Positions 53,299 through 60,338 of a stretch of 64,000 nucleotides of DNA are shown here, piece by piece. The translations under genes and the position numbers were made by a program. The notes under the pieces are model-generated. The model was given only the letters and a program-made list of their open reading frames with translations, was not told where the DNA came from and did not search any database. This stretch comes from Planctomycetaceae bacterium (GTDB lineage Bacteria; Planctomycetota; Planctomycetia; Pirellulales; Pirellulaceae). Every line of letters starts with the position of its first letter. The first letter of the stretch is position 1. Where the stretch lies: positions 1-64,000 of the forward strand of contig PBTE01000199.1 of assembly GCA_002726515.1 (NCBI GenBank), given 5' to 3'.

Positions 53299-54420
53299 TC
53301 ACTTCCGACAGTAGGAGAGCGCAAGGAGAGCATAACCTGTCACCAGATTCTGGTCACCTTCGAGCCAACGCGAGTTTCCATTGATCCACGATCCGTCCTC
53401 GCGCTGTTTTCCCGCCAATTCATGAACCAATTCACTACGCCAATCATGTTCGATCCCGGCCGCATCGACAAATGTGTGCTCACCCAGAAGACTCAACGCT
53501 TTAGCAAAAGTGTGGTAGTAATAGTAGAGTCCCGAGTCTCCCAGGCCTGGATTGCTTTCCAGGTCGTAGTGGCGCTGAATCCATCCAATCGCAGCCTTCA
53601 CGCGAAAATCTTCCGGTCCCACGCCTGCATAAATCATACTCTTGAGACCAGCATAAGTCATCGAACCATAACTTCTTAAACCACCGTTGTCGGTGACCCC
53701 CGACTGGCTCTTTCCTCCCTCCGCAGCAGTGTAGTAAAAACCACCGTCATTGATCTTCGCAGCCGGGGCGGTTGTGTTGAATTCCGTTTCCAGGTTTTGA
53801 CACCTCGAGACGAACAGCAGTGCGCGTTGCAGGGCTTCACTGTCCGCGGCGTTGCCTGCGGCACGCAAAGCTTCAACGAAGAAAGTTGAATTAGAAAGAT
53901 CGGGCCGGCGATGTTTACCGTACCCGGCCCCTCCATAGGCTGGGTCGCGCGGATCTTTGCCTTCGTCCTGATCCCACTGCAGTTCCTTGATGAACTTGTC
54001 CGCGTTCCGAATGATTTCGTCATATTGTCCATCGTCGTTTGCCAGCTGAAAACAAACGATGGACAGGCATGTTTCATAATTGCGATACAAAGTTCCCGGT
54101 TGGTAAATACCCCCGTCCTTTTGAACAAACTTTTCCAAGTACTGTAAACTAACTGCTACCACTGGATCGTTGACCGAGCATCCGTTGCGCAGGATCGCGG
54201 TGGTGATCAAAGCGGTGATGCCAGGTCCCGCATGAGCGCTGTAGGAACCGTCTTTGGCCTGCCCGTGTGATCTCAAGTAATCGATCGCCTTCGCGACGGA
54301 CGACTCTAAAGTACGATCGCGGTCGGTAGGAGCAGAATCCGCACGGCTTGAGGCTTGGTCACGACCCCCAAAAAAGATGGCGGCTAGCAGCGTTAAGATG
54401 GCAAGGGTGCGATTAGTCAT
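53299..54420 (-). CDS. Exported squalene-cyclase/prenyltransferase-like repeat protein
   Basis: A 373-residue protein from ATG 54420; the frame is open to 54462. The N-terminus MTNRTLAILTLLAAIFFGGR is a signal peptide. The rest is an alpha/alpha-barrel of repeats such as KAIDYLRSHGQAKDGSYSA, LQYLEKFVQKDGGIYQPGTL, DPAYGGAGYGKHRRPDLSNS, YAGLKSMIYAGVGPEDFRVK and QREDGSWINGNSRWLEGDQN. These are prenyltransferase/squalene-oxidase (terpene cyclase class 2) repeats. The DxDD acid of true cyclases is not evident, so it is probably a binding or scaffold protein; such proteins are common in Planctomycetota. The exact role is unknown. Confidence 0.85.
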   Translation of the reverse strand: MTNRTLAILTLLAAIFFGGRDQASSRADSAPTDRDRTLESSVAKAIDYLRSHGQAKDGSYSAHAGPGITALITTAILRNGCSVNDPVVAVSLQYLEKFVQKDGGIYQPGTLYRNYETCLSIVCFQLANDDGQYDEIIRNADKFIKELQWDQDEGKDPRDPAYGGAGYGKHRRPDLSNSTFFVEALRAAGNAADSEALQRALLFVSRCQNLETEFNTTAPAAKINDGGFYYTAAEGGKSQSGVTDNGGLRSYGSMTYAGLKSMIYAGVGPEDFRVKAAIGWIQRHYDLESNPGLGDSGLYYYYHTFAKALSLLGEHTFVDAAGIEHDWRSELVHELAGKQREDGSWINGNSRWLEGDQNLVTGYALLALSYCRK

Positions 54421-54609
54421 TGCCCAGTTCCTGAAATTTTGAAAAGAAGCATGTGCTTCCATGGGTCCGGGCAGTGCGACGGCGGTTCAACAGTCCGCTG
54501 ATCTCCAGCCAAACAGTGCGTTTACCCTCCGGTAACTCTAGTACCTTTATTCTACGCCATGAAAGGTGAAAAAGGCGACCCCGCTAAGATGGCACGAGCA
54601 GGCCCTGAA

Positions 54610-55986
54610 TCATTTGCCGATGCAAAAACGGCTGAAAATCCGATCCAGAACGTCCTCGGTGTACACGGCTCCCACTACCTTTCCCAACTCATCCAGTGCA
54701 AACCGCACCTCGGTGGCAACCAATTCTTCACCCGTTGCACCTTGCACTTCCAGCATGGCCCGAGCCAAGCTCTCGTGCGCAGCAGTCAGGCTTTTGTGGC
54801 AACGAGCGGCGGTCGTGGCAACAACATTCCCCAAAGAGTCATCGACCAGAAATGCTGAACGATAAATGGCAAGAAGAAGCTCTTTCACACCAGAACCCGT
54901 CCTGCTGCTCGTTCGAATCGCATCCTTCCCCAGTTGCAAAACATTTGGGTAATCGCACTTCGTTAGAACAAGCAAACGCGGTTCAGGGGGCTGGCTGGAT
55001 AATTCGCCCCGCTCCCAGGCATTTAACGGCCGCGTCGAATCGATACAAAAAATTTGCAGATTGGCCCGTCGACGCTGCTGGGAAGTCACTTGCTGCGCGG
55101 CCGCAGCGGTACCACGGACCGGATTGGCCATCTCGACCCCGGCGGTATCCACCAATTCACACGCCACTCCGTCAATATCAACGCGGCACGTGATGTAGTC
55201 TCGTGTTGTTCCCGGAGCCTCCGAAACAATCGCGGCGGTTTTACCGGCGATCGCGTTGAGCAAACTGCTTTTACCAACGTTGGGTGCTCCAACCAACACG
55301 ACACGAATGCCTTCGACCGTTTGTAAGCGACTCTCCATTTGTAGTAGCGTCTCCTGGATCCTATCAGCCGAGAGTTTCAACTGACTTTCCAGTTCTGCAG
55401 CTCCTATGAATTCTATGTCTTCTTCTACAAAATCAAGTCCCGCTTCAAGTCGGGCAAGTAAGTTGAGCAGATTTTCCCGTAATTCAGTCAAGGGCAACGT
55501 GAGCCCCCCCGCCAATTGTTGCAACGCGGTGTCGAGTTGCTGAGGCCCGCTAGCGTCGATGACTGCCATAACGGCTTCTGCTTGAGTCAGGTCGAGGCGG
55601 CCGGCAAGAAAGGCGCGCATCGTGAATTCACCCGGCTCCGCCAAACGGGCTCCTGCGCCACAAACGGTCTCCAGTGCCGCTTCCAGGAGCGCGGGGGATC
55701 CCACGGTGTGAAGTTCGGCCGTGGGCTGCCGCGTATAACTGCTGGTGCCCGGCCAAAGATAGAGATCGCAAGGCGGATCAGCATCCCACTGCCGCAGTCG
55801 AAGATAACCCGGAATCACGCTGGCACATCGAACCTGATCGATTTGTGTTCCTGCTTGCGAGTCAAACACTTCTCGTAAAAGCGTGACGACGGTGGGACCA
55901 CTTAATCTTACCACTCCACGGTATGCGCCTCCCGGCGGCGAGGCAATAGCGACGATCGTGTCGTCTGGATGGTAGAGTCTGGACAA
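54610..55986 (-). CDS. mnmE: tRNA uridine-5-carboxymethylaminomethyl(34) synthesis GTPase
   Basis: A 458-residue MnmE (TrmE). The N-terminal folate-binding domain starts DTIVAIASPPGGAYRGVVRL. FTMRAFLAGRLDLTQAEAVM is the classic motif. The G domain has GAPNVGKSSLLNA (G1), TTRDY (G2), VDTAGVEMANPVRGT (G3) and LTKCDYPN (G4). The C-terminal end FSRFCIGK carries the invariant Cys. MnmE works with MnmG to modify the wobble uridine of tRNAs. It follows yidC on the same strand after 174 bp, a common bacterial arrangement. The family is regulated by potassium and GTP-dependent dimerisation. Confidence 0.96.
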   Translation of the reverse strand: MSRLYHPDDTIVAIASPPGGAYRGVVRLSGPTVVTLLREVFDSQAGTQIDQVRCASVIPGYLRLRQWDADPPCDLYLWPGTSSYTRQPTAELHTVGSPALLEAALETVCGAGARLAEPGEFTMRAFLAGRLDLTQAEAVMAVIDASGPQQLDTALQQLAGGLTLPLTELRENLLNLLARLEAGLDFVEEDIEFIGAAELESQLKLSADRIQETLLQMESRLQTVEGIRVVLVGAPNVGKSSLLNAIAGKTAAIVSEAPGTTRDYITCRVDIDGVACELVDTAGVEMANPVRGTAAAAQQVTSQQRRRANLQIFCIDSTRPLNAWERGELSSQPPEPRLLVLTKCDYPNVLQLGKDAIRTSSRTGSGVKELLLAIYRSAFLVDDSLGNVVATTAARCHKSLTAAHESLARAMLEVQGATGEELVATEVRFALDELGKVVGAVYTEDVLDRIFSRFCIGK

Positions 55987-56160: not shown

Positions 56161-58620
56161 TCACCGTTTGCCCTTTGATTTTTTCTTGTTGGTTCTCTTG
56201 TTCGGATTCGAAGAACCATTCGATCCGCCACTGGCCGGCTTTTTCAAGGAATTCGTTTCACTCATTTGGTTCGTTTTCGGCACCGGCTTGGGTAGCAGCA
56301 ATCGTTCTGCCACACCCCAGGCACTGGAAGCAATGATGTAGAGGCACAAGCCGGCTGCTACCCTGAAAAATATAACTCCCATGAAGATCATCATGAACTT
56401 CATCATTTTCTGCTGCATGGCAGTTTGGTCATCCGTGGCGGGAGGCATGAACAACTTCTGATGCAACAAGAAAAATGCAATCGTAAACAGTGGTAGAATG
56501 TTAAAAAACGGACCGAGAAATCCCGTCAGGGAACCAAGTCTCGCGAACAGCCATGGTTCCCAGTAAAAGAGCTGATCGGGCGCCGCGAGATTGGAGCACC
56601 AATTGAGTCCCGGTATTAGTGGGGCGCCTCGCAGTCCGATGTCAACACTCAGCGCGCGGTACAGTCCAATGAAAACTGGCAATTGGATCACCATCGGCAA
56701 GCAACCACTGAGTGGGTTGTGGTTGTGCTTCTTGAAAAGTTCTTGCTGTGCTTTTGCCTTTTTCTCCATATCGTTTTTGTATTTTTCGGCAATCTTTTTT
56801 ATTTCCGGGGCAAGCTCCTGCATCTTCGCCGCCATCTGGGCCTGCTTGCGCCCTATAGGGAACATGCAACCCCGAACAAGCACCGTGAGCATAATGATCG
56901 CCAAGCCGTAGCTGCCTGTCTCGAGAACTCCAAGTGTCGTGATCGAATAAAAAAAGTGCAACAAATAGCCCATTAACTTCGCCACGGGTTCAAACCAGCC
57001 ATAGACAATCAATTGGTCGAGTCCGTAATCAGCCAATACCCGGGGACTCTTGGGTCCGGCAAATATCAGAAATTCCTGGGTAAGTGTTTCACCCGGACCA
57101 ATCAGCGCGGATTTCGTTTTTAGTTGAAAAGAGACGTTCGTTACTTTCGGTCTTTTCGAGTTAAGGGATCCCACCGGCCGGGCCACTGCCGATGCAAAAG
57201 GTAACGGACGAGCTGATGACTCCGATTCGGGGTCGGGCATCACCGTGACTGCAAAGTACTGGGTGTCGACTCCGGCGTATTTCAATTCCTCTGAATTCGT
57301 GGAAGTGATTTTTGTCAGTGGGGCACTTGGATTCTCCTCGGCATGTTTTGATATGTCCGTGCAGCCAAACAGCTGATGGCCGTGCAGAGATCCCCACACA
57401 ACGTCCCGGGCACCGGCAGATTTGAACATTTTCGGGTGCGTCTTGTAGAGATACCACCAACCTTCCGTCGGCAAACCAGCAGGCCCATTCAGATGGTAGG
57501 CGACTTCAGTGGTCACATCGTCCAGGTTGTGAAACTCAATCTCCATGCGCAAGTGATACCCGCGGGCCTGAATGCTACCCTCTTCCTGGGGGGTGGCTTG
57601 TGTCAGCCGATAGCGGCGGACGATGCGCAGGCGTCCTTTTTGACCCAACTTTTTCAGTTCGCCCGGACCCAACGTGAGGGAGAATTCAACGACTTGTTCA
57701 GCCCCCGACTCATCAGGTCGCTTCGTAATCTCCCATGGGCGATCGAGCAACGACTCCACTGTGTTGCGGTTCTGCTGCGGGTTATTCGATGATTGGCCCG
57801 CACTCTGTAAAAGACCCAACAGGAACGATCGTTCGGCGGCCGGGTTCGGATCTTCGTCAGAGAAAATCGCTTCGGATTTAATCAACGCCAGCCGAGGTTG
57901 TTCCAAAGTCACTTCGAAATGAGCTTCCTCGGCCTCTCCTTCTACGAAGCGTTGCACCAATAAGTGAACCGTGTCTCCGGGCTGACATGCGCCCAGCGCG
58001 TTATGGAATGATGGGACGTCAAATATTTGGCTATCATTAAATTCCTTGATCACGTCGCCCTTTTGTAATCCAGATTCCACGCCGGATGTGAGTGTTTGGG
58101 CTCCAGCGGCGGGGGTTCCGCGGGGAACCACATTCACTTGGACTCCCGCTTCTGTGTCGAAGTCCGTCAGGGCCAACGGACCCAAATAGCCACTGATTTT
58201 TTGTCCGAAACGCTGTCTATTTTCAGTGGTTCCCAGGTCCCGATGTTCGGAACTGTTGATTTCGACGTGGACAATTGCAGCGCCTCGGTTGGCCGTCACG
58301 ACGAGTAACTTCCAGGGGGAGTCTGGATCGGAGGAACCAAGTGCAACCATTTCTGTTGAAACATCGGGCAACGCCTCAACCGGCGTTTCTTGTTCTGCCT
58401 GTAGCGAGTTCGTCGGCTCATCTACCTGAGATTCATTTTTCCCAGAATCGTCGCTGATTACCTCAGCCAGTTTGTTGTTGACGGCAATCGAGTTCTCATC
58501 GTCCGACTCAGCGGCAATCTGTTGCTCGGGGCGTGGCGGAGCGAACACCGATTGCAGATGCATGTAACCCGTAACGGCGGCCATGCTGAGAACGAAGAAT
58601 AAGAGAAGTCGCTTTTCCAC
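56161..58620 (-). CDS. yidC: Membrane protein insertase YidC, enlarged with PDZ-like insertion
   Basis: An 819-residue YidC, well above the usual 500-620. TM1 is MEKRLLLFFVLSMAAVTGYM. The periplasmic domain then contains, around residues 160-240, a PDZ-like stretch (GLQKGDVIKEFNDSQIFDVP, then FHNALGACQPGDTVHLLVQR). The periplasmic beta-sandwich follows (IVRRYRLTQATPQEEGSIQA, YHLNGPAGLPTEGWWYLYKT). The insertase core has the conserved Arg of TM2 (TVLVRGCMFPIGRKQAQMAA), the long hairpin KMQELAPEIKKIAEKYKNDM, then LSGCLPMVIQLPVFIGLYRA and TM3-TM6. A basic tail (NKRTNKKKSKGKR) resembles the ribosome-binding tails of some homologues. It inserts proteins into the membrane with or without SecYEG. 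Confidence 0.94.
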   Translation of the reverse strand: MEKRLLLFFVLSMAAVTGYMHLQSVFAPPRPEQQIAAESDDENSIAVNNKLAEVISDDSGKNESQVDEPTNSLQAEQETPVEALPDVSTEMVALGSSDPDSPWKLLVVTANRGAAIVHVEINSSEHRDLGTTENRQRFGQKISGYLGPLALTDFDTEAGVQVNVVPRGTPAAGAQTLTSGVESGLQKGDVIKEFNDSQIFDVPSFHNALGACQPGDTVHLLVQRFVEGEAEEAHFEVTLEQPRLALIKSEAIFSDEDPNPAAERSFLLGLLQSAGQSSNNPQQNRNTVESLLDRPWEITKRPDESGAEQVVEFSLTLGPGELKKLGQKGRLRIVRRYRLTQATPQEEGSIQARGYHLRMEIEFHNLDDVTTEVAYHLNGPAGLPTEGWWYLYKTHPKMFKSAGARDVVWGSLHGHQLFGCTDISKHAEENPSAPLTKITSTNSEELKYAGVDTQYFAVTVMPDPESESSARPLPFASAVARPVGSLNSKRPKVTNVSFQLKTKSALIGPGETLTQEFLIFAGPKSPRVLADYGLDQLIVYGWFEPVAKLMGYLLHFFYSITTLGVLETGSYGLAIIMLTVLVRGCMFPIGRKQAQMAAKMQELAPEIKKIAEKYKNDMEKKAKAQQELFKKHNHNPLSGCLPMVIQLPVFIGLYRALSVDIGLRGAPLIPGLNWCSNLAAPDQLFYWEPWLFARLGSLTGFLGPFFNILPLFTIAFFLLHQKLFMPPATDDQTAMQQKMMKFMMIFMGVIFFRVAAGLCLYIIASSAWGVAERLLLPKPVPKTNQMSETNSLKKPASGGSNGSSNPNKRTNKKKSKGKR

Positions 58621-58701: not shown

Positions 58702-59463
58702 CTACTGGCCTTCCCTCAAACGATCGCCAAGAACATTATCGAGTTCGGGAATGTCGTGAATCTTAGCCATCGTCTCTTCGAAAGGATAAGGGACTCGTCG
58801 ATAAGTGACCCCGTTGTCTTCCAGAACAACATAACAGGAACGCGGGTCGCCGTCGCGGGGTTGCCCCACGCTACCTACGTTAATCAGTGCCTTCCCCTGT
58901 CCCAGTTCGTACTGGTAACTGATGTCTCCCGGCTTCAAGAAACTGCGGCTTTCAGTGAGCACGCCGGGTATATGAGTGTGTCCGACAAAACATACTCCGT
59001 GAATCAAGTTGAAGAGTTTTTCGAATTTTTGTGGGTTGTAAATGTCTTCGGGAAAGACGTACTCATTTAATGGATTGCGCGGTGATCCATGTACGAAGAG
59101 TCGATTTTCTTCAAGGTGATTGCGGGGGAGTTCCGCCAGAAATTTCCAACGCCTGGCTGCCTCCGGACCACCATTGACACCTTCGAGTTGGTCGCGTGTC
59201 CAAAAAATTGCCCGTTCTGCTCCGCTTCGGAAACCTTCCGGATCGAACAAAGCACCCTGATCGTGATTGCCCAAAATGCAAACATCGACTTTCATCATTT
59301 GATCGATACATTCGCGCGGATTGGGACCGTAACCGATAATGTCACCCAGGCAATAGATTTCTGAAATCTCCTGGGATTCGATGTCGGCCAGCACTGCCTC
59401 GAGACCTTCGAGGTTGCCATGGATGTCGCTGATGATTGCTCGCTTCACGCGCTGCACTGGCAA
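58702..59463 (-). CDS. Metallophosphoesterase (copy 2 of a tandem pair)
   Basis: A 253-residue calcineurin-like phosphoesterase. The metal motifs are intact: [17 protein letters not shown] (DxH), [19 protein letters not shown] (GD), [18 protein letters not shown] (GNHD), FVHGSPRNP and [12 protein letters not shown] (GHxH). The closest wider group is the YfcE/ApaH-like phosphodiesterases, and protein phosphatases are also possible. It is strikingly like the next gene upstream on the same strand: both end DIPELDN(V/M)LGDRLREG and share [10 protein letters not shown] and [13 protein letters not shown]. The pair is a tandem duplication. It starts 107 bp after the stop of its sibling. Confidence 0.9.
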
Positions 59464-59570: not shown

Positions 59571-60338
59571 CTAGCGGCCTTCACGTAAGCGGTCACCCAA
59601 CATATTGTCGAGTTCCGGAATATCGTAAATCTTTTTAATCGTTGCATCACGGTCGTAATCGACCCTGCGAAAAGTGACCTGATCATCTGTCAACACTGCG
59701 TAACAGGCACGATGATCGCCATCTCGAGGCTGACCTACGGAACCAACATTGATCATCGATTTTTCTTCGCCCAAACTGTATTCGTAATTGCATTCCTCGG
59801 GCGAAATAAAAGCTTGTGAATCCACGAAGATTCCGGGAATGTGTGTGTGTCCTTGAAAACAGTATCGATCAAATCTTTCAAACAAATTGTCCATTTTTCG
59901 CCGGTTGTAGATGTCTTCGGGAAAGACGTATTCACTAGTCGGGTCTCGTGGAGAGCCGTGAACAAACAATAAACCCTCTTCGGAACGGGAACGTGGCATC
60001 TCTCCCAGAAAATCCCAGCGCCGATTGTTTTCCGTAGCGTTACCGCGACGAGCTTCCAGTTCTCCTCGTGTCCAATAGATTGCTCCCAGGGCTACAGGGT
60101 TGAAACCATCCGGATCGAAGATAGCCGCCTGGTCGTGGTTCCCAAGAATGGCAACCGGGAATTCCATACATGCATCAATACATTCGCGAGGGTTGGGACC
60201 ATACCCGACCACGTCACCAAGACAATAAATCTCGGATACCTCCAGCATCTTGATATCCTGGAGAACCGCACGTAGCGCCTCCAGGTTGCCGTGGATGTCA
60301 CTTATCAGCGCTCGTTTCACGCTGCCGTTTCCTTTCAC
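59571..60338 (-). CDS. Metallophosphoesterase (copy 1 of a tandem pair)
   Basis: A 255-residue calcineurin-like phosphoesterase, sibling of the gene at 58702-59463. Motifs are [68 protein letters not shown] and [18 protein letters not shown], so both metal sites look intact. The two proteins align end to end without large gaps. This one is the first gene of the pair, divergent from tsaB across a 246-bp spacer. The function is not fixed by sequence; roles in cyclic-nucleotide or diadenosine-polyphosphate cleavage or protein dephosphorylation are all open. Both copies look active, so they may have split substrates or expression. Confidence 0.9.

Follow-up and report, generated by a model that had tools for sequence, protein, structure and literature searches.

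An HtrA-Type PDZ Domain Predicted within the Membrane Protein Insertase YidC of the Pirellulales

Introduction

YidC is nearly universal and in most cases essential; in its established topology, an N-terminal transmembrane (TM) helix precedes the periplasmic domain. To our knowledge, no settled role has been assigned to this large periplasmic domain. In the YidC of E. coli (6AL2, 3WVF), the N-terminal TM helix is combined with a periplasmic beta-sandwich called P1 (3BLC, 3BS6) and a TM insertase core, and P1 is described to contact SecD/SecF and probably polypeptides leaving SecYEG, as well as to be partly dispensable (PMC7618853). The second group of described proteins relevant here are the HtrA proteases. 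The PDZ domains of these bacterial proteins are described to recognise C-terminal peptides (PMC8545111, PMC11642142); that of AlgW, for instance, binds outer-membrane proteins by their C-termini when these proteins are mislocalised (PMC8545111). The carboxylate-binding loop of HtrA PDZ domains is defined as R/K-XXX-G-Φ-G-Φ (PMC11642142).

PDZ domains are numerous in planctomycetes, as seen in a survey of 7,852 prokaryotic PDZ proteins by Muley and Galande from 2019, the main text of which sorts 12 families and contains neither YidC nor an insertase (PMC6411480). A PDZ domain is not mentioned in a 2025 review on YidC either (PMC7618853), and among the open-licence papers that we searched, none on a YidC with a PDZ domain was found. 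As far as can be told, a PDZ-bearing YidC is therefore unremarked, rather than proven unknown; since Pfam detects the PDZ domain in YidC, domain databases would reveal the combination to anyone looking.

Here we describe such a YidC from a Planctomycetaceae bacterium of the order Pirellulales. Its predicted fold, the insertion point, the single origin, the conservation of the putative binding loop and the copy number are backed by computation. Our reading as a whole, to which we assign a probability of roughly 0.55, is that of a YidC carrying an HtrA-type PDZ domain, inserted once in the Pirellulales and most likely serving as a periplasmic docking site.

Results and Discussion

The window analysed is a stretch of 64,000 nucleotides (contig PBTE01000199.1, positions 1 to 64,000). 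Its open reading frame list and translation reveal a yidC gene with a GTG start at 56161–58620 on the minus strand, encoding 819 residues, the length already given in a preliminary description made from the letters of this DNA. The features of the protein and its downstream neighbour are as follows.

56161..58620, minus strand: yidC, 819 aa, with embedded PDZ domain (open reading frame, Pfam, NCBIfam, AlphaFold2 model)
58543..58617, minus strand: N-terminal TM helix, residues 2–26 (AlphaFold2 model)
58195..58353, minus strand: first part of P1, residues 90–142, ahead of the PDZ insertion (DSSP on the AlphaFold2 model; alignment with the PDZ-less YidCs of the phylum)
57892..58194, minus strand: predicted PDZ domain, residues about 143–243 (Pfam PDZ_2, phmmer/profile, AlphaFold2, Foldseek)
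58180..58191, minus strand: G144-Y145-L146-G147, putative carboxylate-binding loop of the PDZ domain (conservation among relatives of the order)
57016..57891, minus strand: rest of P1, residues 244–535, restarting with strand 245–248 (model, Pfam YidC_periplas, Foldseek 3BLC/3BS6)
56296..57000, minus strand: insertase TM core (60KD_IMP), residues 541–775 (Pfam, model, Foldseek 3WO6/3WO7)
54610..55986, minus strand: mnmE (trmE), downstream neighbour in the usual yidC-mnmE order (Pfam MnmE_helical, TrmE_N)

Both hallmarks of a Gram-negative YidC are present. The insertase TM core is recognised by Pfam 60KD_IMP (PF02096; residues 571–775, 159 bits, cut-off 35) and by NCBIfam TIGR03592 (yidC_oxa1_cterm; 176 bits, cut-off 84.3), and it matches 3WO6 and 3WO7 when the full-length AlphaFold2 model (pLDDT 82.9, pTM 0.81) is searched with Foldseek. 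The P1 beta-sandwich is recognised in its C-terminal part by YidC_periplas (PF14849; residues 440–550, 31.6 bits, cut-off 24), and the same model matches the isolated E. coli P1 domain (3BLC/3BS6) as well as E. coli YidC 6AL2 with an E-value of 7e-23 and a TM-score of 0.68 by target length. The yidC-mnmE gene order is likewise that of Gram-negative YidC.

What sets this protein apart from E. coli YidC is a stretch of about 100 residues that is well supported, by sequence matches and by a predicted fold, as an HtrA-type PDZ domain. Pfam PDZ_2 matches residues 159–237 of the full protein with 32.6 bits (cut-off 27, E 1e-7) and the isolated fragment with 37.3 bits (E 3.5e-9), and it is matched in all 27 aligned relatives at E ≤ 0.01; phmmer and profile searches return the PDZ domains of DegQ, DegP and DegS as best sequence matches. 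An AlphaFold2 model of residues 128–262, calculated from 80 aligned sequences, reaches a mean pLDDT of 87.7 and about 95–98 over the domain body. Nearly all leading matches of this fragment model in a Foldseek search against the PDB are HtrA-family proteases, the top ones being DegS-YQF (3gdv), DegP, H. pylori HtrA and DegQ, all with a probability of 1.00, and the rmsd to HtrA-family structures is about 2–3. In the full-length model, one stretch matches DegS over 101 alignment columns with an rmsd of 1.9 Å. The domain shares with the PDZ domains of HtrA, DegP, DegQ and DegS the fold, a G-Y-L-G-type loop, the signature GTPA...GL..GD(V/I)I and the hydrophobic αB positions. It differs from the HtrA proteases in being a single PDZ domain embedded in an insertase instead of following a trypsin-like domain on the C-terminal side: the Pfam scan of YidC gave no trypsin-like protease domain, and only the PDZ stretch matches TIGR02037, with 24.9 bits against a cut-off of 416.

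The preliminary description had placed a PDZ domain at residues about 160–240 and correctly mapped these to 57901–58143. The domain itself is borne out, but the span was too short, since the GYLG carboxylate loop lies upstream of residue 160; in the alignment of relatives, the conserved block opens at S/G-G144-Y145-L146-G147 and closes near residue 243. The AlphaFold and Foldseek comparison that it had proposed yields the PDZ fold, and instead of the ordinary periplasmic beta-sandwich alone, which would have spoken against its claim, the model contains the sandwich plus the PDZ domain. Its estimate that YidC exceeds the usual length by some 200 residues is accounted for only in part by the domain. 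The interval from the equivalent of P1 strand 115–121 to the W296-equivalent spans 41–90 residues in PDZ-less YidCs of the phylum compared to 142–175 in the order members compared, and judged from these sequences the insert itself is about 100 aa. The remaining extra residues are found in a longer N-terminal linker, longer loops of P1 and of the TM part and a longer C-tail, according to a length comparison whose E. coli row serves as a yardstick only.

DSSP assigns strands 91–95, 105–110 and 115–121 to the first part of P1. In the full-length model the PDZ domain sits between strands 115–121 and 245–248, so that it is predicted to interrupt P1 among its early strands and to leave the remainder of P1 and the TM core intact. 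Linkers of low confidence flank it around residues 130–139 and 252–259. The N-terminal TM helix at residues 2–26, taken together with the known topology of YidC, places the domain on the periplasmic side.

We then consider the putative binding loop and groove, for which 127 relatives from the order were compared. The loop is kept at G144 in 125, at Y145 in 123, at L146 in 96 and at G147 in 126 of these 127 sequences, and G144, Y145 and G147 belong to the top 40 periplasmic positions by conservation. Of these 40, 12 fall into the PDZ domain, which holds 23 % of the positions. Mean conservation amounts to 0.654 for loop positions 144–149 versus 0.411 for the other well-filled PDZ positions (Mann–Whitney p=0.004, a ranking aid only, as the relatives are not independent). 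Positions 146, 149 and 209 have retained their hydrophobic character. The αB helix is mostly variable with a mean conservation of 0.28, and, unlike in HtrA PDZ domains, position 148, the last Φ of X-Φ-G-Φ, is His or Tyr in 76/127 relatives, while a basic residue ahead of the loop is not strongly conserved (80/127 carry one three to five positions before Y145). With His or Tyr at position 148 and a variable αB helix, which shapes specificity, one conserved ligand sequence is unlikely. The pattern fits a loosely specific site for hydrophobic ends or a site that has drifted, and the invariant Gly, Pro and Asp residues of the domain may reflect folding rather than binding.

We infer that the domain binds peptides, and the candidates for the bound peptide or partner are inferred likewise, including the C-terminal peptide or protease/chaperone partner suggested in the preliminary description. 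In the mechanism that we propose, the PDZ domain would form a docking site on the exit, i.e. periplasmic, face of YidC. Its groove would accommodate a hydrophobic stretch, C-terminal or exposed, of a client leaving YidC/SecYEG or, alternatively, the tail of a chaperone or protease in the periplasm, whereby docking would couple insertion to folding or quality control. The location suits such a function because of the contacts described for E. coli P1, and an added domain could be tolerated there without playing a key role given that P1 is partly dispensable (PMC7618853). The fold matches include DegS bound to a C-terminal YQF peptide. The C-termini of F0c and SecG, candidates with tails expected in the periplasm, showed no common motif in a weak test based on heuristic open reading frame picks, a number of which are wrong, SecG above all: the F0c tails vary by genus (TILL, LFNN, QNPWG and others), and that of SecG is variable and of low complexity.

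A more specific version, which we put forward tentatively and as a possibility rather than an expectation, is that the YidC of the Pirellulales combines an insertase with a client receptor of its own, the PDZ domain, which would catch C-termini emerging on the periplasmic side. If true, insertion, chaperoning and hand-over to quality control would be united in one machine, and this in bacteria with unusual envelopes.

The docking reading has to be weighed against a purely structural role, in which a real PDZ domain would act as a spacer that fixes how P1 is arranged with respect to SecDF or the membrane, without binding free peptides. The variable αB helix, the non-aliphatic loop position 148, invariance that lies largely at fold-defining Gly, Pro and Asp residues and the missing shared C-terminus in the two candidates tested are in line with this, yet a spacer accounts poorly for Y145, G144 and G147 ranking among the most conserved positions of the whole periplasmic region and for the retained hydrophobic residues at 146, 149 and 209. 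The low-confidence linkers furthermore point to a module on a loose tether, a feature more in keeping with docking than with a rigid spacer. We regard a spacer as rather unlikely, albeit as the rival that survives best. Lower still we rate the recruitment of a single dedicated partner in place of clients at large, for example a protease or chaperone of the periplasm or a segment of SecDF. Precedents exist in E. coli, where P1 contacts SecD/SecF and YidC cooperates with FtsH (PMC7618853), and in SurA, which binds the periplasmic side of the holo-translocon, presumably via SecDF and possibly via YidC (PMC9987972). A dedicated partner, however, predicts conserved specificity positions in the αB helix and the strand following the loop, both of which belong to the variable parts, and directly beside yidC in the window there is no evident partner gene, the neighbours being mnmE and two metallophosphoesterase genes.

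Docking on the exit face remains our preferred reading, and we also consider the distribution of the domain. A profile derived from PDZ domains of the order itself detects it in 48/48 sampled Pirellulales YidCs from 18 families with 56–105 bits; 30 of these carriers were used to build the profile, and the other 18 score 56–99 bits. All sampling was done within the Planctomycetota, where 0/40 YidCs from outside the order carry the domain (three other families of the class and a set of other classes contribute 20 each; best score 2.2 bits); these YidCs have the same P1 and TM core. The conservation across planctomycete YidC proteins for which the preliminary description had proposed a check is therefore upheld for the Pirellulales sampled, whereas conservation throughout the Planctomycetota is rejected. 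In a scan of named genomes, the best 80 loci, with titles naming Rhodopirellula, Stieleria, Blastopirellula, Bythopirellula, Roseiconus and many "Pirellulales", contain the domain in 80/80 cases, 79 of them directly; these titles are also the source of the order name used here. The remaining locus, L129, was rejected as a PDZ-less case, as its gene is frame-split and the upstream open reading frame carries the PDZ domain; its two frames (starts about 3462 and 4209) lie in a draft contig and possibly result from a sequencing frameshift.

In a tree of the YidC core calculated without the PDZ domain by a quick method, all 48 carriers form one clade with an SH-aLRT of 99, and the domain requires one change on this tree, a value that 0/500 shuffles matched. 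The simplest account of these sequences would be one insertion in the ancestor of the Pirellulales that has been retained since, and as a molecular marker for the order, the PDZ domain in YidC seems clean and of single origin. As a domain fixed order-wide at the periplasmic site of YidC, it represents a natural experiment on a useful addition at the insertase exit, and it offers a defined, removable handle on the coupling of insertion to peptide recognition or quality control.

Two trivial explanations can be dismissed. The window stems from a draft assembly of 236 contigs, but a misassembly or an accidental fusion of a protease fragment to yidC is exceedingly improbable and was rejected as an assembly artefact, as 47 other sampled genomes and the 80 named loci have the insertion at the same site. 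These two sets may partly overlap and include some complete chromosomes. Equally far-fetched is a chance resemblance or a confusion with the ordinary YidC sandwich: the copy in the window scores just moderately above the Pfam cut-off, but profile, fold model, fold search and relatives agree within the limits of prediction, and the model contains the ordinary P1 sandwich as well.

The genome studied here has one gene of the YidC family (60KD_IMP), as do 36 of the 39 genomes in which a match was obtained, so that the PDZ domain resides in the sole insertase of nearly all genomes; in every member examined, it is carried by the one full-length YidC. Being the single copy of its genome, this YidC is predicted to be likely active as an insertase. 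Two of the genomes, both of the same family, contain next to the PDZ-bearing gene a second, short 60KD_IMP copy above the cut-off, G016 at C335:21324–21857 (frame of 235 aa) and G024 at C191:58461–59000 (frame of 224 aa), and G018 shows a weak second match below it.

Some further observations concern the YidC proteins and the genes around yidC. Five YidCs from other families of the class (L044, L045 and L048–L050) are about 780–845 aa long and have long linkers or extra segments, and the order's profile finds no PDZ domain in these proteins; a Pfam scan of L044 and L050 gave no domain in the additional stretches. Within the order, the YidC of genome G033 (L082) contains a probable second PDZ-like repeat at open reading frame residues about 310–367 (13.6 bits), located downstream of the first PDZ domain and ahead of the W296-equivalent. 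In the window, two adjacent and similar genes for calcineurin-like metallophosphoesterases (58702–59463 and 59571–60338, minus strand) lie just upstream of yidC and are apparently a tandem duplication. At 53299–54462 on the minus strand, a protein of 387 aa with an N-terminal hydrophobic stretch is encoded, which shows a weak match to squalene-hopene-cyclase-like repeats (PF13243, 28.4 bits, cut-off 26.1).
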